DNA of 48,422 nucleotides from Spirochaetota bacterium (GCA_009786125.1 WQTU01000133.1:1-48422), one strand, 5' to 3'; counted from the stretch's first letter, positions 9,638 through 40,121 are shown. Translations and numbers: made by a program. Notes: generated by a model from the sequence alone, not told the origin.

Positions 9638-9702
9638 TAAACATACCAAATGGTCGGGGTTTTGCCAAAACATAGTGCTTTTCCCGATCTTTGGTATGTT
9701 TA
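9638..9702. repeat. inverted repeat / hairpin
   Basis: taaacataccaaa (9638-9650) and tttggtatgttta (9690-9702), extended inward by imperfect tggtcgggg / ttcccgatc. Confidence 0.7.
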
Positions 9703-9728
9703 GGGCAAGGGCGTATGGTTTAGAGCTG

Positions 9729-10352
9729 TTAATTCCGAAAGCTGTCCGGTATGTTGGAAACAGTAACGTAGATTTCCTGCCTGTAGTCATTAAGCACCGG
9801 CGAATTAACTTTGGCTGAATAGATAAAGAAAATTCTGCTCTCCTCGAGCATTGCGGGGCTGAATCTTCCTCGGTTTCTTTGTCCTTCTTCCAGCAGAAAA
9901 AGAGCATGCCTTAGCAGAACTGTTTCTGCATTTCTGTTATCAAGCAACGCTGTTTTTTCCATTATTATTTTTCGTAAAGTCGAGCTTTGGTAATTGGAAA
10001 TATTCTTTAAAATAGCAAGAAAAGATTCTCTGGATGCATTAACAGATTCTTCATCATTAAAAAAATGGTCGAGCATAAGAAAAAGAATAAACTCGTTTTC
10101 ATGAACATTATTGCCTCGCTGATAATATATATTATCCAGTAAAAGCGAAAAATTTCTGTCGTCGCGCTTTGCAATATAGGGTATGGCTCTTATTCTTTCC
10201 CCGAAGTCTATGGTGTTAAGATAATCGACTACTATTGAATCGTTTCTGCTGATGGTGTTTGTAAGCCATTCAAATGGGCTTGCAATATCCTGCGCATATA
10301 TGTTCTGTATTAATGTGATAAAAACAAGCGCTGCAATAATTTTTTTAAACAT
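9729..10352 (-). CDS. secreted protein of unknown function (signal peptide, helical-repeat-like)
   Basis: MFKKIIAALVFITLIQNIYAQDIASP signal peptide; 207 aa. Confidence 0.65.
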   Translation of the reverse strand: MFKKIIAALVFITLIQNIYAQDIASPFEWLTNTISRNDSIVVDYLNTIDFGERIRAIPYIAKRDDRNFSLLLDNIYYQRGNNVHENEFILFLMLDHFFNDEESVNASRESFLAILKNISNYQSSTLRKIIMEKTALLDNRNAETVLLRHALFLLEEGQRNRGRFSPAMLEESRIFFIYSAKVNSPVLNDYRQEIYVTVSNIPDSFRN

Positions 10353-13445: not shown

Positions 13446-15002
13446 GTGGCAAAGCCGTTTGTATCTTTGAAGGAAAATATTTTTAGTCTTGATGAAACTA
13501 CTCAGCCTGCGCTTCTTCGCGACCCGCATTCGCGTGTCGCTGCGCCGAGCGCAACATCCATACCCACAGGTGGCACTTTGTTGCAGTACCCCAGAGAGTT
13601 TATGAGTTACATGGGGGTAGTAAAAATATCTGAAGATGAAAATCAGGTCTCTGTTGCCATTGTGGAAGGAAGCAGCCAGAGTGTTTATGACTATATGGAG
13701 GGATTTCATCTTCCGAAAAAAACTAAATTTTACAATGTAAGCAAGTCTGAGTTCGCAGCATTTATCGGTAACACAACGAATGTTGTAGCAAAAGAAACAA
13801 ATAAAACAAAAAATGCAGACCAGTTTGTTCTTGATGATATAACGCACGATGCGCCGATTGTGAATATTATTAATTCTATTTGCATTGAAGCAATTCGTTT
13901 GAATGCATCTGACATTCATATTGAGTGTCAAAGCAACTATATGAGAATCAGATACAGAATAGACGGCATACTTAAAACAGTAAAGAAAATGGATATAGAT
14001 CTTTTTTATTCAATATCAAACAGAATAAAAATAATGGCGAATATGAATACAATGGAGCAGCGGCTGCCGCAGGATGGGCGGCTTACTGTGTCTGTCGAAG
14101 AAATTACTGTTGACCTGCGCGTTTCTACGGTTCCCACAACAAGAGGGGAGTCGATAGTGCTAAGGCTTTTTAATAAATCTACAGAGATATTGTCTTTGGC
14201 TGAGATTGGATTTTGCAAAAGCGATCTTGAAAAAATAAAAGAATATGCAAAATACCCGCATGGTCTTATCTTGCTTACAGGTCCTACTGGCAGCGGGAAA
14301 TCAACAACTCTTCATGCTCTTATAGGAACTATGCGCTCCGATGAATTAAAAATAATTACTATTGAAGATCCTGTTGAGCAAATAATACCTGGCGTGAATC
14401 AGGTGCAGATAAACGAGGAGATTAATCTCACTTTTGACGGAATGCTGCGAAGAGTTTTAAGGCAGGACCCTAATGTAATAATGGTTGGAGAAATAAGGGA
14501 TACTGTTACTGCAGAGCTTGCGCTGCGATCATCATTAACCGGGCATTTAATACTTTCCACACTTCATACGAACGACAGCATCTCTGTCATAGGCAGGCTG
14601 TGCGATATGGGTTTGGAGCCGTATCTTATAGCAGCGGTGTTGCGCTGTTCTGTTGCCCAGCGGCTTGTTAGAAAGCTCTGCAAGGAATGTATAAAATCTT
14701 ATAAGGCTGATAAAAAAATTAAGCAATTGTATCTGAAATATAATATTAAAAGCGATGTTGTGTTTACAGCAAAAGGCTGTGCAATGTGTAATTACACGGG
14801 GTATAAAGGAAGAACTATAGTTGCTGAAATATTTACGAATGATGCAGAAGTGGAAAAAATGATCGCTTTGCAAAAACCCGCATCGGAAATTAAAAGCTAT
14901 GCAATTAAAAGTGGTATGCAGCCTATTGCCCGCGATGCTCTGCAAAAAATTGCAGAAGGCATTACCTCTTTCGAGGAAGTTGAGCGGGAGGTGTTATTCT
15001 AA
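13446..15002 (+). CDS. gspE: type II secretion ATPase
   Basis: Walker A GPTGSGKST, Walker B/Asp box RQDPNVIMVGEIRD, CxxC pairs (CKEC, CAMC). Confidence 0.95.
   Translation: MAKPFVSLKENIFSLDETTQPALLRDPHSRVAAPSATSIPTGGTLLQYPREFMSYMGVVKISEDENQVSVAIVEGSSQSVYDYMEGFHLPKKTKFYNVSKSEFAAFIGNTTNVVAKETNKTKNADQFVLDDITHDAPIVNIINSICIEAIRLNASDIHIECQSNYMRIRYRIDGILKTVKKMDIDLFYSISNRIKIMANMNTMEQRLPQDGRLTVSVEEITVDLRVSTVPTTRGESIVLRLFNKSTEILSLAEIGFCKSDLEKIKEYAKYPHGLILLTGPTGSGKSTTLHALIGTMRSDELKIITIEDPVEQIIPGVNQVQINEEINLTFDGMLRRVLRQDPNVIMVGEIRDTVTAELALRSSLTGHLILSTLHTNDSISVIGRLCDMGLEPYLIAAVLRCSVAQRLVRKLCKECIKSYKADKKIKQLYLKYNIKSDVVFTAKGCAMCNYTGYKGRTIVAEIFTNDAEVEKMIALQKPASEIKSYAIKSGMQPIARDALQKIAEGITSFEEVEREVLF
13518..13567 (-). 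repeat. double-hairpin element copy inside gspE 5' region
   Basis: cgcgacccgcattcgcgtgtcgctgcgccgagcgcaacatccat; reverse-complement match to 36728-36770 (gtcgctRcRccgagcgcRRcatccat core). Confidence 0.65.
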
Positions 15003-16204
15003 TGCCTTTATATAAATGTATTGTTACAAATGGCGCAGGGAGAAAGAGCGAAATTATAAAAGAAGTTTCAGGTGAGAATGAACTTATCTCTTCTTTTGGC
15101 AAACTTGACGGTTTTTTGCTCTCTTTTAATGAAATCAACAAAAAAGAAGTTTATAAAGCCAAAAAACATTTTAACCATGATACTATCAGCGCTTTTACAG
15201 ATATAATGGCATCTCTGCTTAATGCAGGCTTGAATTTACAAAATTCTTTAGAGTTATGCGCAGTAATAACAGATAATGCCAAGGTAAAAAAGCTGTGTGC
15301 AAGTCTCGCGGAAGGAATGAAGCGCGGCGATTCTTTTAATTCTCTTTTAAAAATATATTCATCTTCTTTTTCGCCGCTTTACCAGGCTCTTGTAAGGCTG
15401 GGAGAACAAACAGGTTCTGTCGGAAAAGTTTTTGAGCGTATGAGCAGTTATCTGCAATCTAGCAAGGCGATCAGGGATAAAATTATAAATGCGCTTATGT
15501 ATCCGGCGATTGTATTGTTTGTGGCAATTATAGGCTGCTTTGCAATTGTTCTGTATATACTTCCGAAAATGACAGATATTTTTTTAGTATTTAATTCAGG
15601 CGCGAATAATAATATTGGTATTGAGATAGAGAGAATATATAACTCTTTATGGATATTTTTTGGCCTTTTTATAATGTTTTTGTCAGGCATAGCTGCAGCA
15701 ATTATTTTATACAAAGCCAGCGAGAGATTTGCTTCGTTATTCGATAATTTTATTTTAAAAATTCCGCTTATAGGAACTTTTATCTCTTACATTCAGACAC
15801 TTAACTTTGCTTTTGCAATGGAAATGCTTACAGCAGCCGGAATCAATGTAAGTAAAGCCCTATCTGAGTCTGTAATAGTTGTGAGCAACAGATCATTTAA
15901 AAAATCAATAATTGCTATAAATGAAGATTTAAAACGTGGCGAGGCGATGTCCGATGCTTTTCTTAAGTGCAAAGAGTTTCCGAGTTATGTAGGCACCTGG
16001 ATAGCAGTAGGGGAGCGCACAGGAAAAGTTTCGCATATCTTTGAGCAAATAAGAAAATATTTTCAAAATACAATAAATAACTCTACGCAAAAAATGATGA
16101 ACATGATTGAACCGATATTGATTTTGCTGATAGGAGTTGTTGTATTTATTCTGGTTATACAGTTTGTTTTACCTGTATTCGCATTATATGGGAAGGTGTT
16201 ATGA
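15002..16204 (+). CDS. gspF: type II secretion inner-membrane platform protein
   Basis: Two GspF domains (ALVRLGEQTGSVGKVFERMSSYL; WIAVGERTGKVSHIFEQIRKYF) and TM segments. Confidence 0.93.
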   Translation: MPLYKCIVTNGAGRKSEIIKEVSGENELISSFGKLDGFLLSFNEINKKEVYKAKKHFNHDTISAFTDIMASLLNAGLNLQNSLELCAVITDNAKVKKLCASLAEGMKRGDSFNSLLKIYSSSFSPLYQALVRLGEQTGSVGKVFERMSSYLQSSKAIRDKIINALMYPAIVLFVAIIGCFAIVLYILPKMTDIFLVFNSGANNNIGIEIERIYNSLWIFFGLFIMFLSGIAAAIILYKASERFASLFDNFILKIPLIGTFISYIQTLNFAFAMEMLTAAGINVSKALSESVIVVSNRSFKKSIIAINEDLKRGEAMSDAFLKCKEFPSYVGTWIAVGERTGKVSHIFEQIRKYFQNTINNSTQKMMNMIEPILILLIGVVVFILVIQFVLPVFALYGKVL

Positions 16205-16641
16205 AAAAGATTAATTTACGTTCAGATGATGGCTGGACATTTATGGAAACATTGATTGTCATAGCTATTATTCTTGTTTTGACCTCTTCTGTTGGTTTTG
16301 TTGCAATACAAAATCTTGACAGGGCAAAGGTCGCAACAGCAAGAAGCCAGATAAGCGCATTTTCTGTGGCTCTTGAGTCATATTATATTGACAATGGCCG
16401 TTATCCGACTATGGAGCAGGGGCTTTCGGCTTTGTGGCAAAAGCCTACAGTAGAGCCTGTGAGTCCTTTGTGGAATGGACCTTATCTGCTGAGACCTGTT
16501 CCAAAAGATCCTTGGGGAAATGATTATGAGTATAGGGTACCCGGGCAGCATGGGCTTCCTTATTCCATACGTTCGTTTGGCCGTGATGGCAGAGAAGGCG
16601 GGGAGGGGAAAGATGCGGATATTACATCGTGGGAAAACTGA
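16201..16641 (+). CDS. gspG: major pseudopilin
   Basis: Prepilin N-terminus (WTFMETLIVIAIILVLTSSVG), YYIDNGRYPTMEQGLSAL, PVPKDPWGNDYEY signature. Confidence 0.95.
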   Translation: MKKINLRSDDGWTFMETLIVIAIILVLTSSVGFVAIQNLDRAKVATARSQISAFSVALESYYIDNGRYPTMEQGLSALWQKPTVEPVSPLWNGPYLLRPVPKDPWGNDYEYRVPGQHGLPYSIRSFGRDGREGGEGKDADITSWEN

Positions 16642-16867
16642 TAATGCGGCGCAGCGGCGTGAGTGTTGTCATACTTCGCCATCTAGCAGCGAAGAGGGAT
16701 TTGTGCTGCTTCGCGGGTTGATTACCATGTTTATTATAATGTTTTGCTTAGCCGGAATACTCTTTTCATTATCAACTGTTTCCCGCAGAAGTTCTGTTTT
16801 TAAGGAAGAAGTTCACAGAGAAATTATTCAAAGAAATGAAGATACGAGGAACTTTTTAAACAAATAA
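16612..16867 (+). CDS. pseudopilin-like minor component (GspH/GspI position)
   Basis: Short ORF from an internal ATG (MRILHRGK...) with EEGFVLLRGLITMFIIMFCLAGILFSLS prepilin-like segment; overlaps gspG. Confidence 0.6.
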
Positions 16868-16869
16868 AT

Positions 16870-17340
16870 ATGAAAAAAGCTTTTATAAATCTGCATCTAA
16901 AAAAGCATCTGCGAACAAAAGCTTCTCGCTGGAATAATAGCAGTGCTGGATTTACAATGATGGAATCCATGGTTGCTATTGCAATTACTGCAATTATGGC
17001 AGGAGTCATTTTTACGATAATTTCCACCTCTTTCAAAGGGGCGAATAATACGATGAGCTCAATAGAGAGCGCTTATGAATTGCTATTTGTTGACAGGCTG
17101 ATCAGGGAAAAGGCAGAAACCCTCTATGTCCCCTATTGGGCATCAATGGAAATAGCGGCTGACAATTTCTCTGATCAGCTTTGGACTTCCAGTATTGCAA
17201 AATATATAGAATCAGTAAAGCTAATTTACAACTCTGAAAGAATAATCAGAGGCATCGAAGTAAAATATTTAATAAACAATAATAGTTATACAACTCTGGC
17301 TCTTTTTTCTAATAGACCATTACTTGGGGATAGATGGTGA
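16870..17340 (+). CDS. minor pseudopilin (GspJ/GspI-like)
   Basis: AGFTMMESMVAIAITAIMAGVIFTII prepilin N-terminus; operon position. Confidence 0.7.
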   Translation: MKKAFINLHLKKHLRTKASRWNNSSAGFTMMESMVAIAITAIMAGVIFTIISTSFKGANNTMSSIESAYELLFVDRLIREKAETLYVPYWASMEIAADNFSDQLWTSSIAKYIESVKLIYNSERIIRGIEVKYLINNNSYTTLALFSNRPLLGDRW

Positions 17341-18260
17341 ACAAAAAAGATTCTGGCTGGATTAGTGTAGCTTCTATATTATTTCTCTTTTTTATAACAG
17401 CCATGGTGTCCGGGCTTGCATTGATATTTACTACAAGCAACATCTATTTTAGAAAAAATCAAAATGATTACAAAATAAAAAAAGAAGCAGATATTTTGCT
17501 CAATAGAATTTTGTATGATATCCAATACTTAAAAGAAGAAAGCTTTGACAGCCCGGAAAACAGTTATATCATTAGTTTTATAAATAAATATCGCAAGTGG
17601 AATTTAACTTTGGAAGATGTTTCCAGCGGACTTCATCTTGATTTTTTGCCGGACAGCGATTTGAGAGATCCGCTTTTTAGTCAATATGTGTTTATAAATA
17701 ATCAGTCAACTGCTTTTATTAATTACAGGAATCAGCATGGGCTTTCAAGCAGTGTTAATGATTGGAGACCCTATGTAACAGAGGCTGCAATTTCTTCGTG
17801 CGTTACTTTTGGTTGGCTGCACCGCAGCCATGATTCTTCTTTTGCGTTTAAAGAGATAAGCAGGAATTTTAGCACAGCAGATCAGGATAAACTTTTTCCG
17901 ATTGTTAACAGTTTTCCTTTAATCAATATAAATTATGTTAAGCCCGAGATAATAGAACTTTTTATTCTGCGCCCTTCGTTTGAAATTAAAGATGCAAGAG
18001 AAAAGTATAAAAGGCTAAAAACAAGACTTGAACAGCGCCCGCTTGATGATCTTGACATTATGGAGATACTGGGAGTTCCTTTGGCAAATAGAATTTTTAA
18101 TTATATAGGAGGCAAAACTGCTTTCTGGAAAATAACTTTTGATGCCGAAGAAAAATATATTGTTCAGGCAATAGTTGCAGCAGTACCTAATGAAAAACAT
18201 AATCCAAGAACTGTTGAAAAATATGTGCTGCTTGACAGGAGATTTTTGAATGTCAGATGA
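17334..18260 (+). CDS. gspK: GspK-like minor pseudopilin
   Basis: DSGWISVASILFLFFITAMVSGLALI N-terminal TM; helix-hairpin-like repeats; position between GspJ-like and GspL-like genes. Confidence 0.65.
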   Translation: MVNKKDSGWISVASILFLFFITAMVSGLALIFTTSNIYFRKNQNDYKIKKEADILLNRILYDIQYLKEESFDSPENSYIISFINKYRKWNLTLEDVSSGLHLDFLPDSDLRDPLFSQYVFINNQSTAFINYRNQHGLSSSVNDWRPYVTEAAISSCVTFGWLHRSHDSSFAFKEISRNFSTADQDKLFPIVNSFPLININYVKPEIIELFILRPSFEIKDAREKYKRLKTRLEQRPLDDLDIMEILGVPLANRIFNYIGGKTAFWKITFDAEEKYIVQAIVAAVPNEKHNPRTVEKYVLLDRRFLNVR

Positions 18261-20094
18261 GCCTCTAAATTGTAACCCCGCGCTCAATAGCGACATCGTG
18301 TCGCATCCATGCTGCAGATTTTTTCCAAGAATTAATTATTCAGTTTTTATTCTCCATGTGCCAGAGCTCAAAGGAAAAGAACTTTATCAGGCTGTCTATT
18401 ACAAACTCAAAATGCTCTATCCCGGAAACCTTGATGATACAGATATTATTATAAAAAAGAACGGAAAGCAAAAACATTCACATCTTGTTTTTTTGTTACC
18501 CAAAGATTTGCCTAAGAGCCCTGTGCCGCTCCCCACACTGCTGCTGCAACAAAAGCTTAAAGGAAAAACCGCAACAGCTTTGTTTATCAGCTCTGCCTGG
18601 ATCGAAATAGTAAAAATCGAACAAGGAGCAATAAGCGAATCAATTGTCAAAAGAATAGATAGTGTTTCAGATATCCGCAGCTATATAGAAACTTTTTGCA
18701 ATGAAGAAACTTCTGTGGAAATATTTTATGAAAAAAATAACTCACATGATTTAGAAGCTATTTTCAAAGTCCTGCCCAATCATGAAAATGTTGTTTTCAG
18801 AAATATCGAAGATTTTGTAAAAAGAATATCTTTTGACTCTATCTGCATCTACAGCCAATATAGCCCAAAAAAGAAATATATTAAAATTGGTTCTTTTGCT
18901 TTTGCACTTGTCGTTATTTTTTTTACTTTATTTGGGGTATATCAGTATAAAACAATTTTAGAAGAAAAAAACAAACAGCTTCGGGCAGAGCAATTAAGAA
19001 TAGAAAAAACTTTAGAGTCCGAAAGAATTAAAAAACAAAGGTTGGCAACCCTTGAGATTGAATATATGAATTTAATTGAGGGAAAGCGATTAAACCCATT
19101 TGAAGTTGTAAGTATAATTTCGTCATGCCTTGATCGAAATGTTTTAGTTACATCACTGACTATTATGGGAAATAGTTTCCAGATGGAAGCAGTAGCCCAG
19201 GATTCACTTAAAATACTAAGGAACTTTGAAAAAAACAGGCAGATCAATAATTTAAGAATGAATCAGATTCACCCTTATCAAAACAGGGAGAGGTTTAGTT
19301 TAAATGGCGCTGTTCTTCCTGTAAAACGTTATGTGCCTGAAGATAACTCAATAGAAGAAAGAATAAAAATACTCGAAGCTCTTATTCGCGAAGAAAAACA
19401 ACAAGAATATGGCGAGGAATTTACGGCCGCTCTTTTTGGAATGACCATACGAGATGTTTTAAGAAGCTCCAGGTGCGCGATTAAGAGCTATCAGTATCTT
19501 GGTTATGGTAACGAAAGGGAAATTGAATTTTCGCTTCAGGCTAATAGCAGAAACTTCTTCAATTTTCTCAAAATATCATCAATGCCTTTATATAACTGGG
19601 ATTTTTCTCTTGTACAAATAAGAAATCTCGCGCCAAGAGATGCTCTTGATGTTGTAATACGTATAAAAGCTAATTTTGATATTGATGGCTCCAATAACTT
19701 AAAATCAATTCCGGTATTTCCCGCCGAGCGAGTTGCTGCGAGCGAAGGTTCCCCTCCGGAAAAGTATATTGAAAGAATAGAAAAAGAAATTGCAGAAATC
19801 GCTAGAAATTATTTTGCTGCGCCCCCAAGAATTGCGGCACTCTCTGAAACAAGACCAAGACAAGTACAGGAACCGGAAAGGATGAGGCGAGAAGTAATTT
19901 CGTGGCTTGCTTATGCAGGGGTTATAAGAGAATCAAGCGGGGCGCATTATATATTTATGAGAAATACAAGAGATGGTCGTATGCTTAGATTTGAACTAAA
20001 TGGGAGCGGCAATATGAGCTGCAAGATTCTTGATTCAGGAAATATAGAAGTAGTTATGGATAATAGAGTTTATGAAGTTCGAAGAGAAAGGTAA
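18250..20094 (+). CDS. GspL/PilN-like assembly platform protein
   Basis: 614 aa: cytoplasmic N-part, single TM (IKIGSFAFALVVIFFTLFGVY) followed by coiled coil (EEKNKQLRAEQLRIEKTLESERIKKQR) and periplasmic domains; last gene of operon. Confidence 0.6.
   Translation: MSDEPLNCNPALNSDIVSHPCCRFFPRINYSVFILHVPELKGKELYQAVYYKLKMLYPGNLDDTDIIIKKNGKQKHSHLVFLLPKDLPKSPVPLPTLLLQQKLKGKTATALFISSAWIEIVKIEQGAISESIVKRIDSVSDIRSYIETFCNEETSVEIFYEKNNSHDLEAIFKVLPNHENVVFRNIEDFVKRISFDSICIYSQYSPKKKYIKIGSFAFALVVIFFTLFGVYQYKTILEEKNKQLRAEQLRIEKTLESERIKKQRLATLEIEYMNLIEGKRLNPFEVVSIISSCLDRNVLVTSLTIMGNSFQMEAVAQDSLKILRNFEKNRQINNLRMNQIHPYQNRERFSLNGAVLPVKRYVPEDNSIEERIKILEALIREEKQQEYGEEFTAALFGMTIRDVLRSSRCAIKSYQYLGYGNEREIEFSLQANSRNFFNFLKISSMPLYNWDFSLVQIRNLAPRDALDVVIRIKANFDIDGSNNLKSIPVFPAERVAASEGSPPEKYIERIEKEIAEIARNYFAAPPRIAALSETRPRQVQEPERMRREVISWLAYAGVIRESSGAHYIFMRNTRDGRMLRFELNGSGNMSCKILDSGNIEVVMDNRVYEVRRER
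18279..18315 (+). repeat. double-hairpin element copy inside gspL-like CDS
   Basis: ccgcgctcaatagcgacatcgtgtcgcatccatgctgc; resembles 36728-36770. Confidence 0.55.
19713..19759 (+). repeat. 47-bp in-frame palindromic-type element, copy P1 (in gspL-like CDS)
   Basis: GGTATTTCCCGCCGAGCGAGTTGCTGCGAGCGAAGGTTCCCCTCCGG; 41/47 identical to P2 by hand alignment. Confidence 0.85.
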
Positions 20095-20140
20095 TTGGCA
20101 GCATAAAAATGATAAGCTAGATAAGGTTGAATCGTTTGAT

Positions 20141-21373
20141 CTAATTAGTAGTTTGCATTAACATCATTTCATCGAGTATCCGTAATGTTCTTTTTACAGT
20201 TGCAAGGTTTGCTATTGCGGGGCTAAATCCCGGATCAAGCTCAATAGCTCTTTCCCAATAATCCGCAGCTGCCCTTAGGTCGCCATTAGCATAAGCAAGG
20301 AGCCCCAGGATATAAAATTCATCAACTCTTGTAGCAACTTGCCCTCTGCCTCTATCGCCAAGATTAAGAGATGCTACAACACTAAATCTGTCAAGCCCGG
20401 CTTGGGTTGTAAGGTCGAGTGTATAGTTGAAGTTAAAACTTATATTGTTAAAATCAATCCTGCTTCCTACAGAAAATCTTGGGTTATTACCCCTGTATCT
20501 AAAGCCGCATTGAACAGAGAAAAAATCTGTAACTCTAAGATCCGCGCCTACAGCAAAACCCCATTTTTCTGCAGGAATTTCCGGGTCAAGGGAAATCGGC
20601 TGTGTAAAATCAAAGGCAAGTATTAATGGTCTTATAGGCGAATATGCAATTCCTGCTGTTACTTCAAGCGGCAGAGGGTCGTCCAGTTGTGCAATCCCTA
20701 AATTCTTTAAAGTAATGCCGAAAGATGCATTTTTCTCCCTTGCATGATAAAATTTAAGAAAATTAAATCTTGTAAGAAGTCCAAAATCCATCATTGTTGC
20801 AAAAGCTGACTGATTTGCATAAATAGCCTCAGGGATGTGGCGGTAAGCAATTTTAAAATTTGTGCCAAGTGCGATTCCCCAAAAATCATGACTAGCAAAA
20901 AATCTGTATGAGGCGTTAATTATTCCAACAGTTTCAGAATAGAACCCCCTGGATGTTCGTTCGCCCCAAAACCCATATCCTGTAAATGGAACATAGAGAA
21001 ATTTTGCTCCCAGCGCAAAGCCAAAATTATTATGTCTTGCTGTAAAAACAAGACTTTCTATATTTGTATCTGCTATCCAATTATTATGGAAAAAAACGAG
21101 TTCTGTATATCTAAGGCTGGAGCTTCCCGCAGGATTAGCCTCTAAAAAGCTTGCATCATCTGCAACTGCTGTAAAAGCTGTGCCCATTGCCTCCATTCTC
21201 CCGCCCATTGGTATAAGAAGGGTTGGAAATGCTGTAAGACCTGTATTTGGGTCAGAAAAAGAGCCAAAAAGCCTGTCTTTTCTATAATAGAAATCAGATA
21301 AATCAAAGGCTGATGCGGAAAATGAGACTAAAATTATGAATAAAATTGCAAAACAAAGTAGTTTTTTTGCCAT
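20141..21373 (-). CDS. UPF0164 / PorV-like (FadL-like beta-barrel) outer-membrane protein with C-terminal TPR
   Basis: Signal peptide; PMGGRMEAMGTAFTAVADDASFLEANPAGSSSL; amphipathic strands; C-terminal LLAYANGDLRAAADYWERAIELDPGFSPAI TPR. Confidence 0.8.
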   Translation of the reverse strand: MAKKLLCFAILFIILVSFSASAFDLSDFYYRKDRLFGSFSDPNTGLTAFPTLLIPMGGRMEAMGTAFTAVADDASFLEANPAGSSSLRYTELVFFHNNWIADTNIESLVFTARHNNFGFALGAKFLYVPFTGYGFWGERTSRGFYSETVGIINASYRFFASHDFWGIALGTNFKIAYRHIPEAIYANQSAFATMMDFGLLTRFNFLKFYHAREKNASFGITLKNLGIAQLDDPLPLEVTAGIAYSPIRPLILAFDFTQPISLDPEIPAEKWGFAVGADLRVTDFFSVQCGFRYRGNNPRFSVGSRIDFNNISFNFNYTLDLTTQAGLDRFSVVASLNLGDRGRGQVATRVDEFYILGLLAYANGDLRAAADYWERAIELDPGFSPAIANLATVKRTLRILDEMMLMQTTN

Positions 21374-21550
21374 TTTTCCTTATACTATATAATAACAGAT
21401 AGTTTTAAAAAAAACGAGTAACTATTTTAAATAATCGGAATTTTTTATAGTAAGTTTACTATATTAGCGCTACTTATCTATAATATGTTACTTTATTGCC
21501 GATAATATAGTAATATATTCATGTAAAATTAAAGAAGGGGTAGGCAAAGT

Positions 21551-24500: not shown

Positions 24501-24565
24501 ACCCAAGGAACAGAAATTATACTCCCCTTCTTGAACTTAGAAGGAGGATTGAAGCAAGAATATGA
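21551..24565 (+). CDS. large periplasmic TPR-like repeat protein, putative signal peptide/lipoprotein; probable ATC start
   Basis: ORF track starts at ATG 21650, but in-frame upstream codons give (ATC)RTPFSLKHLLFYSLFILCLVAQAYGGGKREDP, a signal peptide, preceded by AAAGAAGGGG. No ATG/GTG/TTG between the stop at 21530 and 21650. Confidence 0.7.
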   Translation: MRTPFSLKHLLFYSLFILCLVAQAYGGGKREDPMSTARQLISERKFNEAVKILAEIVKNEPNRLDEVESQMAIVRSVRNQYNLYYEQLIAILRKEDFTEQDIIAAYGLIDDIMALDPYPDQTVITFLEVARRTVAFRYHDIRFRGIMDRALALILQARYWEAIALYTEAIGFYRGIFIENRPEHIIREADNTVQEARETINRFLAFQTPYLQAAERARRESARDAQFMLNSAEYNDLVNVIRRMAAAREEASAMLTRIEQRVNQLLLPIEFDIPYLSSISTVMRGRRAGAEEGVFAAIGFLWDSIIDENTALLTGHSDTHFSRGRMQFNNGQYRDAEISFGFAKNRNDIIYNLVSLRGYNISAAGGFDHYEWLSILPDHLPQYYEAEKKARAANDYILLSQIMQRITAIENNLLRETVFNNIITARNQVVSDNRMISVNHAAWQESEESMLRLIQADFSVDNALAVSTEMKNLFGVHEARLNSLSASLIRIGVDLVYLPVSRDLQAQLAHVRPGFEMVDGIQTVIGEGDAAFTITARYNQRAMELFTGSLAGFAITENNLRNILTIIYESSEDALSADALREPEESINNDLAVIASIRGDIERYMQISRDFLIRAEVHRTQADRFIADARANLDRDNFDVARESLRLAGESYASSLSLNEDPVLRANSDREIFALSDEILRRQSAFVVEAVRRNINEARDLYTRERFGDAENILQNSQTLWRTVNDEDVNPELEFWLSLVRTALSVRTGRVIAEADPLFREMTQVLNLARNDYLNAIAANQRGNRAEMLRHLNQAEEKLLLVTIPFPINQEASVLSLRIMQLRDQQAFNVMFRERYDMAVGMIDVNPGEAHLILNDLRAINPNFPGIDQAIIRTEIRLGMRTPPPDPARIREAETLLQRANAIFLTNVRSNFPIAIAYLNRAFELNPNDGRITALRDRVQTEIGGTATIVLSSEAQQQYRLAEQEFINGNFFTSLAIVERLLQDPRNRNYTPLLELRRRIEARI

Positions 24566-29127: not shown

Positions 29128-29442
29128 GTGAATAAGAAAAAAGGGTTTGTATGTCAAAATTGCGAAAAAGCAGTTCCTGCGAATAAGGAAAGATGCCCTC
29201 ATTGCGGAAGATTTTTTAAAGGCGTAAGGTGCCCCAAGTGTTTTTTTGTAGGAGGATCAAATGATTTTTTGAAGGGATGCCCATCTTGCGGTTATCTTGA
29301 AGATGAGGCAGGTAATCCGGATTTTCATAATCATAAAAAAAATAAAACACCCCGCACCATTCCATTATGGTTTCTTCTCTTTTCGGCAGCATTTCTCATA
29401 CTATTAATAATTATACTTATTTATATTTTTTTGAAGATGTGA
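29128..29442 (+). CDS. zinc-ribbon membrane protein (GTG start)
   Basis: CQNCEKAVPANKERCPHCG, CPKC...CPSCG pairs; C-terminal TM. Confidence 0.75.
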   Translation: MNKKKGFVCQNCEKAVPANKERCPHCGRFFKGVRCPKCFFVGGSNDFLKGCPSCGYLEDEAGNPDFHNHKKNKTPRTIPLWFLLFSAAFLILLIIILIYIFLKM

Positions 29443-29454
29443 TACAGTAAAATT

Positions 29455-30147
29455 ATGAAGAAAAATATAGTAATAATTATAATATTTATATTTTTGATAA
29501 TATCATGTAAGCGCGAAAGAGAGGGAGATGAATCTCTGGTGTTGTATCAAGAGCAGAGAGCAGAAAATATTATCGCAGAAGATATTAGAATATCCAATAT
29601 TAGCAATGATAATAATCAGGCTGTAACACTTAACCCAGTGGCGTCTGAAATTCAAAGAAGCAGAGTAGTGCCTGTAAATGTTGGCAATCACAATCTTTTG
29701 CGGGAACAAAACAGAGGTATCGTAACTCCGGAAGATTTTGAAATAGGACCGCTTCTTGTTTCTTCAAACAGAATTGATGAAGAAATTCAAAATAAATTAT
29801 ATAAAGAATTTATAAACAATTTTTTTACCGAGCTTAGGGAACACAACATACCTGCATCTATGATCTTATCAGAAAGTCTTTTTTTTCTTACAAATATTTT
29901 TAACTTTTATATAGAAAGAGAACAGATTCCTGATAATATCAGAATAGGCAGAGTATTCCGTACTCCGGATGGTTTAAAACTAAATTTAAGAATGTTTAAG
30001 GGTAATAATAGAACAGAGGGACAGATTGTACTTGTGGAAACAGATAATGGTCTTAGGGTAAGAAGGTTTCACGGGGATCTCGGAATGCTTGATGTAGAAT
30101 ATACCGGACGTAATGAAAAATTTGAGCCTGAGTTTTTTAGATTTTGA
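29455..30147 (+). CDS. lipoprotein, unknown function
   Basis: MKKNIVIIIIFIFLIISCKRE lipobox. Confidence 0.7.
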   Translation: MKKNIVIIIIFIFLIISCKREREGDESLVLYQEQRAENIIAEDIRISNISNDNNQAVTLNPVASEIQRSRVVPVNVGNHNLLREQNRGIVTPEDFEIGPLLVSSNRIDEEIQNKLYKEFINNFFTELREHNIPASMILSESLFFLTNIFNFYIEREQIPDNIRIGRVFRTPDGLKLNLRMFKGNNRTEGQIVLVETDNGLRVRRFHGDLGMLDVEYTGRNEKFEPEFFRF

Positions 30148-30149
30148 TA

Positions 30150-30196
30150 CCGAAGGAGAACCTTCGCTCGCAGATACTAGCTCTGCGGGAAATACC
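30150..30196 (-). repeat. 47-bp element, copy P2 (intergenic)
   Basis: Reverse complement GGTATTTCCCGCAGAGCTAGTATCTGCGAGCGAAGGTTCTCCTTCGG; near-identical to P1. Confidence 0.88.
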
Positions 30197-30224
30197 AAGA
30201 TAAGTCGAAAAGGCGGGGATTAAA

Positions 30225-31466
30225 TTGGCTGTTGAGACAAATAGAATAGAAACAGAATTTATTATAAAATCACTTTTAGATAACATGATTCCTGTAACTA
30301 TACATAAGAATAAAAATATTACAGGAAAAGTAATAGATTATGAACTCGAAAAAAATGTAGTAATAGAATTGCAGAAAGAGGATGTAAAATTATTTGAGCC
30401 TGAAGAAAAAAATGTTGTATATTTTTCATACTTTGATCATGTAATGAATTTTTCTGTAACGGTAACCAAAACTGCGGAAAAGCAAATAGTATTTTCTTAC
30501 CCTTCAAAAATATATAAAAATTTAAGCAGAAAATATATAAGGGTAGTTCCTCCCAAAGATTCCAAAATTGTTTTTAGCATGAAAGGAGAAAGTTTTCAGC
30601 TTGATTTTCCAAAAACAGAAGAGTATAATGCCGTTGATTACCCTGAATTTGACACAGATGAATTTCCTGTTAACAATATTTCACAGTTATTAAATGAATT
30701 CAGAAAAAAAGTTCTGGAATCTGTAAGTTGTGTTAATATCGTTACATACCGCAAGCAAAAACCTGTATCTATAGAAGAAAGATTGCTTGCGATATCAGGA
30801 AAGGTTTTATATATTCCATCAGTTAATAAAGATTTACCCAGCTTTCCTGAAACGGAAAATGTTCCGATTTTAACAAAGGACACTATTGATACTTATATGC
30901 AGGATGGTGAAAAATTGCTTAAACAAAGCAATTTTAAAAAAAATGCTGACGGAGTTCGCTCAGAAGTATATTGTCCCATTTTGTATCTTGAATATGTAGT
31001 TGGATACATACATCTTCAGAATAAAGGAATAAAACAGGCAAGAATAAAAAATGATATTATTGAATATATTTATCAGTTTTCAAAAGTTCTGGCATTTTCA
31101 CTTAAAGTTAGCGGATATTTTAATCACGGAAAAGTAGAAGTTCAGGAAAGGCACGAAAACACAATAGTAGATATAAGCGCTTCCGGGGTACTGTTTGAAT
31201 CAAAATCGAAGAAACTGGAAAAATCAATTTTTCTCTACTCAGATATAAAAATTGAACTTATTCTTGGCGAAAAAAATATTCCGATAAATGTCAGAGTAAT
31301 GAGGAAATTTAAAAGCGGGGATAGTGTTTTTTACGGTCTAATTTTTCTTGAGTTAGATCCAAATGATTTTGAACATCTTTTTAATTTTATATATCAAAGG
31401 GAAATTACTGAGGATGATATAGAAAAATGGGAAGGCGGTTCAGCTCCGCCACAGATTGATATGTGA
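30225..31466 (+). CDS. PilZ-domain protein (spirochaete DUF1577-like), putative c-di-GMP receptor (TTG start)
   Basis: RKYIR (RxxxR) and C-terminal DISASGVLFES (DxSxxG) PilZ signature. Confidence 0.75.
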   Translation: MAVETNRIETEFIIKSLLDNMIPVTIHKNKNITGKVIDYELEKNVVIELQKEDVKLFEPEEKNVVYFSYFDHVMNFSVTVTKTAEKQIVFSYPSKIYKNLSRKYIRVVPPKDSKIVFSMKGESFQLDFPKTEEYNAVDYPEFDTDEFPVNNISQLLNEFRKKVLESVSCVNIVTYRKQKPVSIEERLLAISGKVLYIPSVNKDLPSFPETENVPILTKDTIDTYMQDGEKLLKQSNFKKNADGVRSEVYCPILYLEYVVGYIHLQNKGIKQARIKNDIIEYIYQFSKVLAFSLKVSGYFNHGKVEVQERHENTIVDISASGVLFESKSKKLEKSIFLYSDIKIELILGEKNIPINVRVMRKFKSGDSVFYGLIFLELDPNDFEHLFNFIYQREITEDDIEKWEGGSAPPQIDM

Positions 31467-32114
31467 GTATCCGAATAGCCCCCAAAATAAAAAAACTATT
31501 GCTGCAAAAAAAAGTATCTGCCTAAAACAAGGTTTTGAATTAATAGAAGGGCTCTTTGTTTTAGCTCCTTCTTTAATAGCAGGAGAATTTTCGATTTCAA
31601 GAAGCTTTGAATCTATTTGCTCTATAATGTTTTTCTTAAATTTTAAATGCAGCTCAGTCAGCTTTTCAAAGTAGAAAAAGATTTCATAAAAAAGCGCTCC
31701 TGCTTTACCCGGCAAAACAAGATCTTTTCTGACCGAGAATCTTGAGATATATACCGAACCTATCAGTAATAAAGATTTTTTTAAACCTAAAAATATTGCA
31801 CCCTGCGTAATATAGAATTGCCCAATTTCATAATATACCTTTCCTGACGGAGGATAGATATGTGCAATTATTATTCCCAAAGAGAGTAATATATTGGGTA
31901 AAACACGAAACTTTCTTCCCGTAATAATATTTAATACAACAGCTATAATAACAAAAAGAAATCTTATAAATAAATCTGTTGTAAAAAGAAACGCAGGAAA
32001 GATTATTATCCCTGTTATTAAATAGAGACGAGGATCAATATTTTTCAGCATATTGACCTTGAATCGATAACTTTGTTTTAAGCCACTGCGATTTTGAAAT
32101 AAATAGTTCTGCAA
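31440..32114 (-). CDS. polytopic membrane protein, CbiQ/EcfT-like
   Basis: Hydrophobic N-terminal two thirds, charged cytoplasmic tail; overlaps the Gx-transporter gene. Confidence 0.45.
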   Translation of the reverse strand: MQNYLFQNRSGLKQSYRFKVNMLKNIDPRLYLITGIIIFPAFLFTTDLFIRFLFVIIAVVLNIITGRKFRVLPNILLSLGIIIAHIYPPSGKVYYEIGQFYITQGAIFLGLKKSLLLIGSVYISRFSVRKDLVLPGKAGALFYEIFFYFEKLTELHLKFKKNIIEQIDSKLLEIENSPAIKEGAKTKSPSINSKPCFRQILFFAAIVFLFWGLFGYSHINLWRS

Positions 32115-32586
32115 AAATACCTGTAAACAGCGAAGTCACTATGCCAATAATTAAAACAGGCGGCGCCATAAGTATTGCGGCTTTTCCAAATATAAGATAT
32201 TTTGCAATAATCAGCTGAACAGTATTACTTGCAAAAGCGCCGGTAATCGAAACCCCAACCATTGAGATTTTATCTTTGCATATTCGATAAATAATTATCA
32301 TTGCAATTCCGCTTGCCAAAGAACCGGATAAAGAAAATAAAAATATATAAGAAAAAAGAGTTCCTGTTATTATACCCTGACCAATGATTTTTAGGAAAAC
32401 AAGCGCCATTGTCATGCGCGGAGAAAATATTTTAAGAGAAACCATAATGGGTATATTGGCAATCCCATACCTTATAAATAAAATTGGTTTGGGTATAATA
32501 TACTCAATCATTGCGAGAAAAATACAACATGCAGCAAGAAGAGCAAGAGTTTCTCTGCTTTTAAAAAGTGAAGGTGTCGATCTCAT
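32035..32586 (-). CDS. Gx transporter family protein (annotated in relatives as heptaprenyl diphosphate synthase component I)
   Basis: Polytopic; FIRYGIANIPIMVSLKIFSPRMTMALVFLKIIGQGIITGTLFSYIFLFSLSG Gx-type signature. Confidence 0.75.
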   Translation of the reverse strand: MRSTPSLFKSRETLALLAACCIFLAMIEYIIPKPILFIRYGIANIPIMVSLKIFSPRMTMALVFLKIIGQGIITGTLFSYIFLFSLSGSLASGIAMIIIYRICKDKISMVGVSITGAFASNTVQLIIAKYLIFGKAAILMAPPVLIIGIVTSLFTGIFAELFISKSQWLKTKLSIQGQYAEKY

Positions 32587-32944
32587 TTTCCGCTCTTACA
32601 GCAGCCGCATCTCCTTTGATTCTTATGAAAATCATATTAGGAAGACAACCTATCCATTCTCGTGATCTTCCGATATGTCCTGATTTTACACATAATTTAT
32701 CCGCGCATGGTGAATATTGAAAAAATGCTTGCCTGTTATCAATAACAATTATGGAACTGCCAAGGGGACCGCTTATGGGGATTTCTTTGTTTTGTCCAAG
32801 GTGAAAAACCCAGGTATCGCCTCTGGAAGTTATTTCAAGAAGTTCCGGAGGCGAGTAATTGCCATATATAAAATATCCTGCAACAAGCGCTGTACTCATA
32901 CAAAGCAGTATTATTATGATATCCGCTACTTTAATTTTTATCAT
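32561..32944 (-). CDS. NusG domain II-containing protein
   Basis: TM anchor plus SPCADKLCVKSGHIGRSREWIGCLPNMIFIRI signature. Confidence 0.82.
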   Translation of the reverse strand: MIKIKVADIIIILLCMSTALVAGYFIYGNYSPPELLEITSRGDTWVFHLGQNKEIPISGPLGSSIIVIDNRQAFFQYSPCADKLCVKSGHIGRSREWIGCLPNMIFIRIKGDAAAVRAENEIDTFTF

Positions 32945-32958
32945 CTTAGTTATGCTTT

Positions 32959-33762
32959 TTATAAATCATTATAACTTTCATAAAACCAGTTGTATAATGC
33001 AATAATTCTGTTATAAACAGATTGTGTTATCCTTCTTGTAATAAAATTATTACCCACTGTTGTCCTGCCAATGCCGCTGCAATAAAGAAATAAACCTTCT
33101 TCCCCCGGTATTATGATGATATGAAACATCAATGATCCTCTTGCTACAGCAGGAACAAATCCCAGAGAAAGTCTTTCTGTATTACTCATTCTCATAACAA
33201 GAAATCCTGATGAAGTGTCATATTCAATTTTGTATCTATTGCTGCCAAAAACAGAATCTCTGATTCTCGCAGTAATAGTATGAGACGTAGGAACTTTGGT
33301 TATGGGATACGATACTCTTCCGGAAAGTATTTCTACTCTATCAAATAATATTCTATCTTCGTTATTAGAGACCGAGAAATATTTAATGCCTTCGAGTTTT
33401 TCAATATTTGTTGTAACTCTAAAAGAATCAAAAAGCGCATTTTTTTTACCATCTTTATTTCTATAAGGAATAAAAAAAAGAGATTCAGTTGCTACATTAA
33501 ATCTTATATTTCTTTTATTTTCCAGAATCTCTCTTTTTGATGATATGTCGGGAATGAGTCTAAAATCATCAGAAGATGCCGGGAACCGTTCAACCATTCC
33601 GAATTCAATAAGAGTATTTATTTCTTCGTTTGACATAGAGCTAAAAAATGATTTTATATCTTTGCGTAATATATTTTCATCTATATTACTATCTGAATAT
33701 ATTTTGTACGGAATAACAGATGATAAAAACACCATTAAGATTGAAAAAAAGATATTTCTCAT
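32959..33762 (-). CDS. secreted protein of unknown function
   Basis: Signal peptide MRNIFFSILMVFLSSVIPYKIYSD; 267 aa. Confidence 0.6.
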   Translation of the reverse strand: MRNIFFSILMVFLSSVIPYKIYSDSNIDENILRKDIKSFFSSMSNEEINTLIEFGMVERFPASSDDFRLIPDISSKREILENKRNIRFNVATESLFFIPYRNKDGKKNALFDSFRVTTNIEKLEGIKYFSVSNNEDRILFDRVEILSGRVSYPITKVPTSHTITARIRDSVFGSNRYKIEYDTSSGFLVMRMSNTERLSLGFVPAVARGSLMFHIIIIPGEEGLFLYCSGIGRTTVGNNFITRRITQSVYNRIIALYNWFYESYNDL

Positions 33763-33814
33763 GTATCCTCATCTAAGATATTAATATAATATCTATTCTC
33801 CTTCAAGAGGTTTT

Positions 33815-34969
33815 ATGAAGATTACTGTATGTTTTACTGGCGGCGGTACGGCAGGTCATGTTTTTCCAGGTTTGGCAGTTATGGATTCTCTTGCAAAATT
33901 TTGCAAAAATGCGAACGCGGGCACTGGTGTAAGCAGTGATTTTTTCTGGATAGGATCATCATCCGGAATGGAAAAAAAACTTCTTAAAGAAAGAGGAATA
34001 AAATTTATTGGTATACCAGCAGGCAAGCTGCGGCGTTATTTTTCATTTAGAAATTTTACAGATATTTTTAAAATAATGGCAGGTATAATCGCTTCACTTT
34101 GTATTTTGCTTAGAAAAAGGCCGGATATAATATTCTCAAAAGGAGGATATGTCTCTGTTCCTTCTGTTTTTGCAGGAAAAATCCTTGGCATACCTGTTAT
34201 AACTCATGAATCAGACTATACTCCGGGGCTTGCCACCCGTATAAATAAAAGATTTTCAAAGCTTATTTTGCTCTCTTTCGAAGAAAGCAAAAAATTCTTT
34301 GAAGAAAAATATCATAATAAGCTCTATTTTACGGGAAACCCTGTAAGAAAAATCTTTTATAGTGCAAATTCCGCTGCCGGAAGAAAAATTGCATCTGTTT
34401 CCGAAGATATTCCTGTAATAATGGTTATTGGCGGCAGTCTTGGCGCCAGAGAGATAAATGGGTTAATAGAGAAACTTTTGCCGGAACTTCTCAAAAACTA
34501 TTATGTAATTCATCAGTCCGGAAACAACAAAATATCGGAAGATATATCTAAACTTCCGGAAGAATTTAAAAAAAGGTATAAAAGATACTCTTTTATAGGA
34601 AATGAGATTGCGGATTTTATTGCTGCTTCTGATATTGTTATTTCGCGTGCAGGAGCAGGGTTGATATGGGAACTGGCAGCAGTTGGAAAAGCTTCGATTT
34701 TAATTCCTCTTCGCGGAAAAGGTACAAGAGGCGACCAGGTAGAAAATGCAGGTTTTTTAAGATCAAAAGAAGCAGCTATAGTGCTTGATGATGAAGAAAT
34801 ATTACCAGATACTTTGTATAATACAATTGTATCCCTTATTTCAAATAAAGAGTTAATAAAAAAAATGGAGAATAAAATAAAAGAATTAAGCAAGCCGGAA
34901 TCCGGCGACTATATTTCTCAAAAAATACTTGAAAGCACAAAAAAACAGCCGGAGATAAAAAATGAGTAA
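33815..34969 (+). CDS. murG: UDP-N-acetylglucosamine--N-acetylmuramyl-(pentapeptide) pyrophosphoryl-undecaprenol N-acetylglucosamine transferase
   Basis: FTGGGTAGHVFPGLAV, THESDYTPGLATR, VIGGSLGAREIN, SRAGAGLIWELAAVGKASILIPL. Confidence 0.92.
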   Translation: MKITVCFTGGGTAGHVFPGLAVMDSLAKFCKNANAGTGVSSDFFWIGSSSGMEKKLLKERGIKFIGIPAGKLRRYFSFRNFTDIFKIMAGIIASLCILLRKRPDIIFSKGGYVSVPSVFAGKILGIPVITHESDYTPGLATRINKRFSKLILLSFEESKKFFEEKYHNKLYFTGNPVRKIFYSANSAAGRKIASVSEDIPVIMVIGGSLGAREINGLIEKLLPELLKNYYVIHQSGNNKISEDISKLPEEFKKRYKRYSFIGNEIADFIAASDIVISRAGAGLIWELAAVGKASILIPLRGKGTRGDQVENAGFLRSKEAAIVLDDEEILPDTLYNTIVSLISNKELIKKMENKIKELSKPESGDYISQKILESTKKQPEIKNE

Positions 34970-35471
34970 TTTTCATATTTCGCCTGTAGATGTAGTTTTT
35001 ATTATTATAATTCTTTTTTTTACTATACGGGCTATATCAAGAGGGTTTGTAACGGAATTTCTCTCTATTGCGTCTGTTCTGGGCGGTATAATTGCAGGAT
35101 TTGTTTTTTCATCAATACTTACTAACTATATTGCTAAATACTTTGAAATAACATGGTGGAACAGGCTTATCTCATTTTTAGTTATTTTTCTTATCACTTA
35201 TGTCTTACTAAAATTGATCGAAAGATTTTTATATACTTTGATAGAAAAAATACAACTTCAGAGGCTGGATCGCTCTTTGGGGCTTTTTTTAGGAGTGCTT
35301 GAAGGCTGTATAATTATACTATTTATTATAATTGTTATTGATGCTCAGCCGTTTTTCAGTTCAGATAAGATTTTCTCCGATAGTATTATCGTTGAATATG
35401 CAAGAAAAATAATTTCTTCCATACCTGAAAATAGTATAATTAATCAGATTGATTTTAGTATGGGGATATAA
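34962..35471 (+). CDS. CvpA family membrane protein
   Basis: Four TM segments with SRGFVTEFLSIASVLGGIIAG and LDRSLGLFLGVLEG motifs. Confidence 0.8.
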   Translation: MSNFHISPVDVVFIIIILFFTIRAISRGFVTEFLSIASVLGGIIAGFVFSSILTNYIAKYFEITWWNRLISFLVIFLITYVLLKLIERFLYTLIEKIQLQRLDRSLGLFLGVLEGCIIILFIIIVIDAQPFFSSDKIFSDSIIVEYARKIISSIPENSIINQIDFSMGI

Positions 35472-36670
35472 TGTTTGAAAATATAATTGGGCATAGCTCT
35501 TTTATTGAGCAGCTTAAAAAAGAGATAAAATCTGACTCTTTTCCTTCTTCTGTTCTTATTTCCGGACCGCTTTACTCCGGCAAGCAGGCTATAGCGCTTG
35601 AAATTGCAAGAGCAGTAACGTGTGAACAGGATGCGGACTGGAACTGTATGTGCCAATCATGCAGGCTGCACAGAGTTCTTGCAAATCCGCAAATAGCGCT
35701 TCTGGGGTGGGATCTGTTTATACCTGAGATTTTTGCAGTAAAAAATGTTCTGGAGAAAAAAAGAGATAACACAAGCTGTTATCTTTTTATAAGAGGAGTA
35801 AGAAAACTGCTGAGAAGGTTTGATTCTGTTTTAGTGGAAGAAAATGATTCTAAATTTAAAAAAATATCATCTCTGCTTGCCAATACAGAAGAACTGCTTG
35901 CAGATTTTGACCCGGAGCATGGCATAGAATCAAAAGTAATTGATATTAAAACTGCGGAAACAATTGTTGAAAATTGCAAAACAATTGTCAACGAATATAA
36001 ATTTACAAATATACCTGTAGATCAAATAAGAAAAGTCAGTTACTGGGTGCGTTTTTCCGGCTATGGAAATAAAAAAATCATTATTATTGAAAATGCCGAA
36101 AACATGAATGACAGTTCAAGGAATGCTCTTTTAAAAATACTCGAAGAACCGCCTAATAATACTTTTTTTATTCTTTTAACTTGCAGACCCGGAGAAATAA
36201 TTCCTACAATAAAATCACGTTTAAGAAAATATGAAATTACAGAAAGGTCTATACAGGAAAACAAAACAGTTATAGAAAGAATATTCAAAGAAGAAACAAG
36301 GATATTTACAGGAATTAAAGAATATCTTGATTCTACAATTCCCGAAACAGCACTCTTAAAAAAAGCTGCCAAACAATTTATAGTCAGCCTCTACGACAGT
36401 AACAATGAGCATATAGGTTTACCTCAGGAAATAAAAACTATTTTAAAATCGCAGTTTTCCGAATATTACCCGGCTTTTCTTTCAGAAATATTAAATCTTT
36501 CAAGAGAGTTGCTGCACAACAGCGATTTTATTAATAACAATCCCGAGAATATTGCCTTTATTAAAAAAATAAATACATTTGTAAATGAAAGTTATAAAGG
36601 CTTTGAAAAGTTAAATATAAACCATGAGCTTTTAACAGAATCAATGTTTTTGGAATTGCGTAACCGATGA
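35471..36670 (+). CDS. holB: DNA polymerase III delta'-like (clamp loader) subunit
   Basis: GHSSFIEQLKKEIKSDSFPSSVLISGPLYSGKQAIALEIARAVTC; KIIIIENAENMNDSSRNALLKILEEPPNNTFFILLT. Confidence 0.85.
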   Translation: MFENIIGHSSFIEQLKKEIKSDSFPSSVLISGPLYSGKQAIALEIARAVTCEQDADWNCMCQSCRLHRVLANPQIALLGWDLFIPEIFAVKNVLEKKRDNTSCYLFIRGVRKLLRRFDSVLVEENDSKFKKISSLLANTEELLADFDPEHGIESKVIDIKTAETIVENCKTIVNEYKFTNIPVDQIRKVSYWVRFSGYGNKKIIIIENAENMNDSSRNALLKILEEPPNNTFFILLTCRPGEIIPTIKSRLRKYEITERSIQENKTVIERIFKEETRIFTGIKEYLDSTIPETALLKKAAKQFIVSLYDSNNEHIGLPQEIKTILKSQFSEYYPAFLSEILNLSRELLHNSDFINNNPENIAFIKKINTFVNESYKGFEKLNINHELLTESMFLELRNR

Positions 36671-36697
36671 TTAAATTTGACTCTAATCATCGGTTAC
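36660..36697 (+). terminator. strong hairpin overlapping the holB stop codon, followed by T-rich tract
   Basis: gtaaccgatgatta (36660-36673) / taatcatcggttac (36684-36697): 14-bp perfect stem, then ataatttttctcgttttctttt. Confidence 0.55.
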
Positions 36698-36700
36698 ATA

Positions 36701-36840
36701 ATTTTTCTCGTTTTCTTTTAGAAAACTGCGGCATGGATGCCGCGCTCGGTGTAGCGACATGGATGTCGCGAAAAAACACCGGCTACGAAAAAATTATAAT
36801 AATGTAATGCTGTTTTATTCTCGATTGAATAAAACAGCGA
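36701..36840 (+). repeat. relative of the 45.3-kb MITE interior, interrupted by a double-hairpin insert
   Basis: Shares atttttctcgtttt..agaaaact..acgaaaaaa and ttattctcgattgaataaa.cagcg with 45428-45539. Confidence 0.7.
36728..36770 (+). repeat. double-hairpin element (intergenic copy)
   Basis: gcggcatggatgccgc + gctcggtgta + gcgacatggatgtcgc: two adjacent near-perfect hairpins. Confidence 0.75.
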
Positions 36841-36857
36841 TATTTTAAAAAGAGATT

Positions 36858-40032: not shown

Positions 40033-40043
40033 TATTAATAATA

Positions 40044-40118
40044 GGTATTACGTGCAAGCACGCGCAAAGCGCGACCGCCAGGCAGCTTGTCCGCGGTTCT
40101 CGCTTCGTCGGTAAATAA
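40044..40118 (-). repeat. REP-like dispersed repeat, copy 2 (inverted relative to copy 1)
   Basis: Reverse complement TTATTTACCGACGAAGCGAGAACCGCGGACAAGCTGCCTGGCGGTCGCGCTTTGCGCGTGCTTGCACGTAATACC. Confidence 0.92.
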
Positions 40119-40121
40119 CAA

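Follow-up and report, generated by a model that had tools for sequence, protein, structure and literature searches.

The window analysed here is the whole of contig C133 (48,422 nucleotides; GCA_009786125.1, WQTU01000133.1) from a 2.42-Mb Spirochaetota genome in 139 contigs (99.2% complete). It carries the gsp genes in one operon-like run (gspD, E, F, G, an H-like gene, a pseudopilin gene, a K-like gene, and a gspL-like gene), together with copies of a short palindromic repeat, here termed the double hairpin (DH), that lie both inside these genes and between genes. The nearest named relative of the genome is a metagenome-assembled genome (MAG), ‘Spirochaetaceae bacterium isolate Lab288P1bin105’, whose isolate name points to a termite-gut source, and the host genus of the DH is presumably one of gut spirochaetes; metagenome-assembled spirochaete genomes of this sort have been published from higher-termite guts (PMC7024585). 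The features on which the analysis centres are as follows:

13446-15002, plus strand: gspE, type II secretion ATPase, GTG start (PF00437, E 3.9e-120), aligned with 14 homologues, DH insert at residues ~21-47.
13506-13586, plus strand: DH insertion in gspE, 81 nt (27 amino acids), in frame, peptide PALLRDPHSRVAAPSATSIPTGGTLLQ.
18250-20094, plus strand: gspL-like gene with two in-frame palindromic insertions, orthologues in G001 and G003, no Pfam match.
18271-18318, plus strand: degenerate DH copy in gspL, 48 nt, in frame, N-terminal, net gain of 16 amino acids, hairpin A retained and hairpin B truncated.
36723-36781, minus strand: intergenic full-length DH copy over 59 model positions, 84.5 bits with the covariance model (CM), near-identical to C126:35556 and C88:11.

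The CM was built from 14 copies of the DH, and an alignment of 14 full-length copies is free of gaps. The unit is ~58 nt long, has the consensus CGGCGCTTTTTCGCGACATCCGTGTCGCTGCGCCGAGCGCGACGTCCATGTCGCAG, and forms three helices laid out as CGGCGC-TTTTTC-GCGACA-TCCG-TGTCGC-T-GCGCCG-AGC-GCGACG-TCCA-TGTCGC-AG, i.e., an outer stem (CGGYGY...RCRCCG) around hairpin A, followed by hairpin B. A preliminary description of this DNA had placed a double hairpin between genes at 36728-36770, which the CM confirmed, and had read it as two adjacent hairpins joined by gctcggtgta; the two hairpins stand, but the joining bases form part of the third stem, which encloses one of them. In 57 distinct copies drawn from four species, pairing held in 96.4% of cells, two-sided changes occurred at 13 of the 18 base pairs, and the covariation score was 0.33 compared to 0.17 for shuffled alignments and at most 0.10 with slid partners; these copies were fitted to the model, which biases their covariation towards it, and the ungapped 14-copy alignment agrees. 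Minimum free energy z-scores of the in-gene inserts were unremarkable (-2.5 to 1.3, this genome, mononucleotide shuffling), and covariation was hence used as evidence instead of folding energy. The consensus contains no stop codon in any of the six frames, which taken alone is merely suggestive, as 8.7% of shuffled consensus sequences were equally stop-free.

Genome-wide, at least 71 DH copies were found with the CM in this genome and at least 20, 29, and 29 in three congeners, all counts being lower bounds with up to 92 candidates scored per genome. No copy was found among the CM candidates scored in 56 other Spirochaetia, including seven sister-genus genomes (60 genomes searched in all), and the reversed-genome control for the DH profile gave no matches. 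The DH is a genus-restricted, structured, high-copy repeat. Its 12-mer core GCRRCATCCATG (up to one mismatch) occurred 142 times versus four times for the reversed pattern, and the intergenic copy as query returned 44 BLAST matches in the genome; many of these lie at the ends of contigs, where repeats that break assemblies are expected. Comparisons with the congener G001 were performed on sampled stretches (829 kb of this genome with a G+C content of 38%, and 1.04 Mb of G001). The 829-kb sample contained 31 DH copies at E 0.01: seven in conserved open reading frames (ORFs), two at ORF edges, seven in other long ORFs, and 15 outside. At a congener locus adjoining a gene (L220 1387-1558, G003:C43), three DH copies are arranged head to tail with an exact 57-nt period.

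Within gspE, where the reverse complement of the intergenic copy had been reported to match at 13518-13567, a DH copy is present (30.5 bits, E 7e-5 in the CM scan of the window; 45.9 bits, E 2e-6 genome-wide; E 2.3e-8 with a hidden Markov model in 829 kb), and its score was reached by none of 1000 shuffles. An indel at residues ~24-41 had been proposed for checking, and comparison of GspE N-termini located the 81-nt insert at residues ~21-47, without a counterpart in any of 14 homologues (the 85%-identical congener G001 and 13 other Spirochaetia). The protein reads ...SLDETTQ[PALLRDPHSRVAAPSATSIPTGGTLLQ]YPREF... at the site where G001 has ...NFAESNQYPREF..., the conserved core begins right after the insert at Q47-Y48, and the loop of hairpin B is enlarged by a stretch similar to the CACCCRCAAGGGGYACTTT module that other mosaics contain. 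Both ends of the insertion are ambiguous by CAG; this trinucleotide flanks the insert on both sides but also belongs to the end of the element, and the orthologues are too diverged for a test of target-site duplication. Purifying selection acts on gspE (nonsynonymous divergence dN 0.107, synonymous divergence dS 1.193). In the predicted GspE model, residues 4-45 have a predicted local distance difference test (pLDDT) score below 50, which is consistent with a disordered tail, and the rest matches GspE and PilB ATPases.

Taken alone, the gspL copy scores low (CM 9.0 bits at 18287-18305, E 2.8 over the window), and given its degeneracy its membership in the DH family rests on position, length, and end-to-end alignment combined. 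It coincides exactly with the 48 nt missing from the congener (GspL of G001 has MSDKIINFFPRINY at the site where the window protein has MSDEPLNCNPALNSDIVSHPCCRFFPRINY), aligns end to end with the DH copies C126:8143 and C139:61823 save for an internal deletion of ~15 nt between hairpin A and the loop of hairpin B, and attained a score reached by none of 1000 shuffles. The resemblance previously noted at 18279-18315 was thereby extended to a degenerate copy spanning 18271-18318, and the proposal that one and the same palindromic element supplies peptide insertions to two genes within an operon held: the peptides are lacking from GspE and GspL of G001 and from GspE of the 13 other Spirochaetia, and both scores lie beyond all shuffles. 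A further insertion lies in the same run of genes:

16643-16681, plus strand: insertion of 39 nt in the gspH-like gene, in frame, probably a decayed DH half with a weak match, absent from the G001 orthologue.

This insert matches the outer-stem half of DH copies at 67-81%, its score was reached by 5 of 1000 shuffles, and it is probably, if weakly, assignable as a DH fragment. The insertions in gspH and in a histidine-kinase gene, the genome-wide spread of the DH, and its frequent nesting in other palindromes go beyond the scope of the preliminary description.

Among 524 reciprocal best pairs with G001 (median identity 74%), 29 insertions of at least eight amino acids between well-aligned flanks were identified, 20 of them in this genome. 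Ten of these 20 consist of sequence repeated elsewhere in the genome, a count that omits a leucine-rich-repeat gain and one weak match; the inserts of G001 were compared solely with repeats of this genome and thus provide no control. Insertions made of repeated sequence had a G+C content of 44-72% versus 38% overall. Element-derived peptides were located in asparaginase, biotin-protein ligase (three inserts), an FGGY sugar kinase, RibD, MiaB-like and HemW-like proteins (names presumed from domain content), and an RsmB/F-like methyltransferase, with DH copies inside the genes for asparaginase, RibD, biotin ligase, and the HemW-like and MiaB-like proteins. RibD and asparaginase align to solved structures as separate pieces around the inserts. 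Two or three insertions each are present in the asparaginase, biotin ligase, HemW-like, and RibD genes (G000 C132:5556-6908, C128:17786-18781, C129:19631-21034, and C138:32216-33583, respectively). No element-associated frame-breaking insertion was detected when 498 congener proteins were located on this genome by per-protein tblastn, a procedure that is blind near gene ends. Two frame-break candidates were rejected: C130:25134, an intergenic element beside a spurious N-terminal match, and C138:29292, which is low in G+C, overlaps no repeat, and hence is no element.

Based on the repetition, the conserved structure, the restriction to one genus, the in-frame insertion relative to orthologues, and the purifying selection on the host gene gspE, we consider it highly probable that the DH belongs to the non-autonomous palindromic repeats and that copies landing in frame are both tolerated and translated, a behaviour comparable in function to that of the Rickettsia palindromic elements (RPE). 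An interspersed unit of ~58 nt would have multiplied within one gut-spirochaete genus and landed in intergenic DNA, inside genes, and in loops formed by other palindromic repeats. A copy with a length that is a multiple of three would leave the gene open, because the consensus is stop-free in six frames, and would add a peptide of ~15-50 residues; frame-breaking copies would be eliminated by selection. The copies would have moved actively, and their peptides would be translated as near-neutral passengers, i.e., as selfish DNA tolerated in the form of protein loops. Since the gspE and gspL peptides are situated in N-terminal segments outside the conserved core, both secretion proteins probably still work, and frame retention and the purifying selection on gspE are indirect signs of a translated, active host protein.

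Several points weigh against this interpretation. Domain searches of this genome identified no mobilising enzyme: Y1 (PF01797), DDE_3, rve (integrase core), and reverse-transcriptase (RVT_1) domains were absent, and DDE_Tnp_1 was represented by three fragmentary matches only (one ~80 nt upstream of a DH copy, a single case from which nothing was drawn), so that the mobilising activity would have to be unrecognised or lost. No clear target-site duplication was seen at DH insertions, translation of the inserts is a prediction from sequence, and the presence of two or three insertions in several genes represents clustering that is not easily reconciled with random neutral insertion. Additionally, the 139-contig assembly is probably metagenomic, with repeats frequently at contig ends.

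The surroundings of DH copies bear on how they might spread, and the intergenic copy of the window is part of a larger structure:

36660-36854, no strand assigned: composite palindromic repeat of ~195 nt, a repeat island in self-BLAST, with the intergenic DH copy flanked by a further hairpin on either side.

This composite folds to -74.1 kcal/mol as linked hairpins. In-gene DH copies are mostly bare units and intergenic ones lie within long mosaics, the median repeat island being 62.5 nt in genes versus 216.5 nt between genes (Mann–Whitney p=2e-4, 14 vs 14; contig-end copies and one doubtful frame omitted). A host hairpin occurs with an empty loop (CGCGGGCAAGC-AGA-GCTTGC, 11 copies) and with the DH in its loop (CGCGGRCAAGC-[DH]-AGA-GCTTGC, four copies), and the loops of some DH hairpins themselves contain further modules. 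Because of these empty and filled forms, the modules in DH loops, and the nearly transposase-free genome, a mechanism undescribed for bacterial repeats may be envisaged, in which the DH inserts preferentially into existing hairpin loops without a classical transposase, making nested palindromes with in-gene copies as a by-product; we regard this mechanism as unlikely.

Preservation of the three helices by compensatory changes and the intergenic position of about half of the copies would also suit a DH retained because its RNA or DNA structure has a function (as terminator, mRNA stabiliser, or protein-binding site), with incidental in-gene copies. Such a role appears improbable, as copies occupy both strands and either orientation to genes, some lie within coding sequence or inside other palindromes, and others form a tandem array (G003:C43), and an Rfam scan of the window returned no matches at gathering thresholds; moreover, the very mechanism of replication or transposition may preserve the pairing. 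Compact hairpins within conserved genes, some awkwardly placed in folded domains (RibD, asparaginase), could alternatively be excised from the transcript like an intron or bypassed by the ribosome during translation, and would then add nothing to the protein. Hairpin bypass elements of some yeast mitochondria are termed ‘byp’. Removal or bypass would not require the frame to be kept, yet every element insertion found in a conserved gene preserves the frame and is free of stops, with no frame break among the 498 located orthologues; the unconstrained length and frame of bypass elements were not observed, the consensus is open in six frames, and no reverse transcriptase was found in the genome, which makes this explanation very unlikely.

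Repetitive extragenic palindromes (REPs) spread by a REP-associated tyrosine transposase (RAYT, a Y1 enzyme) likewise comprise many short palindromes, often as paired hairpins and sometimes intragenic, as for GTAG and CGTC repeats (PMC3733652). The Y1 domain was absent from this 99.2% complete genome (five of 14 control genomes were positive), where RAYT presence is expected for GTAG families and not for CGTC families, and the DH hairpins possess neither a terminal GTAG or CGTC tag nor the A/T-first stems diagnostic of the two super-families, leaving scarcely any probability for such an origin. The inserts might also have been co-selected to alter the contact between GspE and GspL: the two proteins bind each other, both inserts are N-terminal, and among structures the GspE model matches the GspE-GspL cytoplasmic complex 4pht best. 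This is equally implausible, given that many unrelated enzymes carry similar inserts, that neither frame nor sequence is common to the two peptides, and that disorder is predicted for the GspE insert.

Among known systems, the preferred reading of the DH as a tolerated, translated repeat finds its closest functional parallel in RPE, stem-loops of 105-146 bp in Rickettsiales, and in Wolbachia palindromic repeats, both interspersed and present between genes as well as in frame in many conserved protein genes; a guanylate kinase containing an RPE is translated and active (PMC2229807). The DH likewise is an interspersed palindromic repeat in many copies (at least 71, with an 18-pair covarying structure), intergenic and in frame in conserved genes, and absent from the G001 orthologues of gspE, gspL, and others. 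It differs in its length (~58 nt), its fold as a double hairpin, its consensus, and its spirochaete host, in being G+C-rich in an A+T-rich genome, and in being often nested; by length and host it is not an RPE, the distinction being based on these two criteria. CGTC repeat families, which include RPE-4 and RPE-6, have been reported in spirochaetes (PMC3733652), and the DH shares with GTAG and CGTC REPs its short high-copy palindromes, dimers, and some intragenic positions, whereas it lacks the tag (14-copy alignment) and a Y1 transposase and has three helices with a stem-enclosed hairpin. Mitochondrial double-hairpin and repetitive hairpin-forming elements are comparable in being dispersed, often tandem, and sometimes intragenic (PMC2800124), but have other sequences, whereas the DH is bacterial and occurs in frame in many housekeeping genes. 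Bacterial miniature inverted-repeat transposable elements (MITEs; Correia, RUP, ERIC) are likewise short and non-autonomous, their transcripts form stem-loops, and some are joined to genes in frame (PMC2229807); unlike these, the DH is devoid of terminal inverted repeats, since its first stem pairs internally (columns 1-6 with 30-35). The composite holding the DH at 36660-36854 is closer to a MITE. Together with a second long MITE-like composite at 45332-45563, it has the ends TAGGGAAGCACTGATTA ... TTCCCTA and at least a dozen relatives in the sample; no autonomous partner of these two composites was found. No earlier report of in-frame palindromic elements in spirochaetes was found in a search of largely non-subscription literature, only CGTC repeats being mentioned for the phylum.

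In-frame palindromic insertions in housekeeping proteins have mainly been seen as a peculiarity of the obligate intracellular Rickettsia and Wolbachia. Here, a genus of gut spirochaetes appears to present the same phenomenon at a similar scale, with elements of other size and fold, and the congener lacks peptides of 15-50 residues that are present in RibD, asparaginase, and biotin ligase. This supports the idea of selfish DNA repeatedly seeding new protein segments, and comparison within the genus makes both element movement and protein tolerance testable.

A second palindromic family (family B, ~45 nt) was represented by the following in-gene copies:

19713-19759 (approximate), plus strand: family B insertion in gspL, in frame, VFPAERVAASEGSPP, absent from G001 and G003.
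37197-37241, plus strand: family B copy in the histidine-kinase gene (kinase domains), in frame, VFPGGSSFASEASSP, absent from the G001 orthologue.

The gspL insertion has other copies in the genome at E 7e-7 to 4e-4. The consensus of family B is CCGGTATTTCCCGCCGAGCGAGTTGCTGCGAGCGAAGGTTCCCCTCCGG (~45 nt; loci 19713-19759, 30150-30196, 37197-37241, and L142 1380-1647), its in-gene copies share one reading frame (VFPAERVAASEGSPP, VFPGGSSFASEASSP, PIFPSGQNFASEDSM), and in G057, from another Spirochaetia family, it forms a 45-nt tandem array. A further repeat module, ACCGACGAAGCGAGAACCGC..., is present as inverted copies at 9521-9613 and 40037-40125 (98% complementary over 48 nt), the former of which overlaps the 3′ end of a minus-strand frame at 9527-9907.

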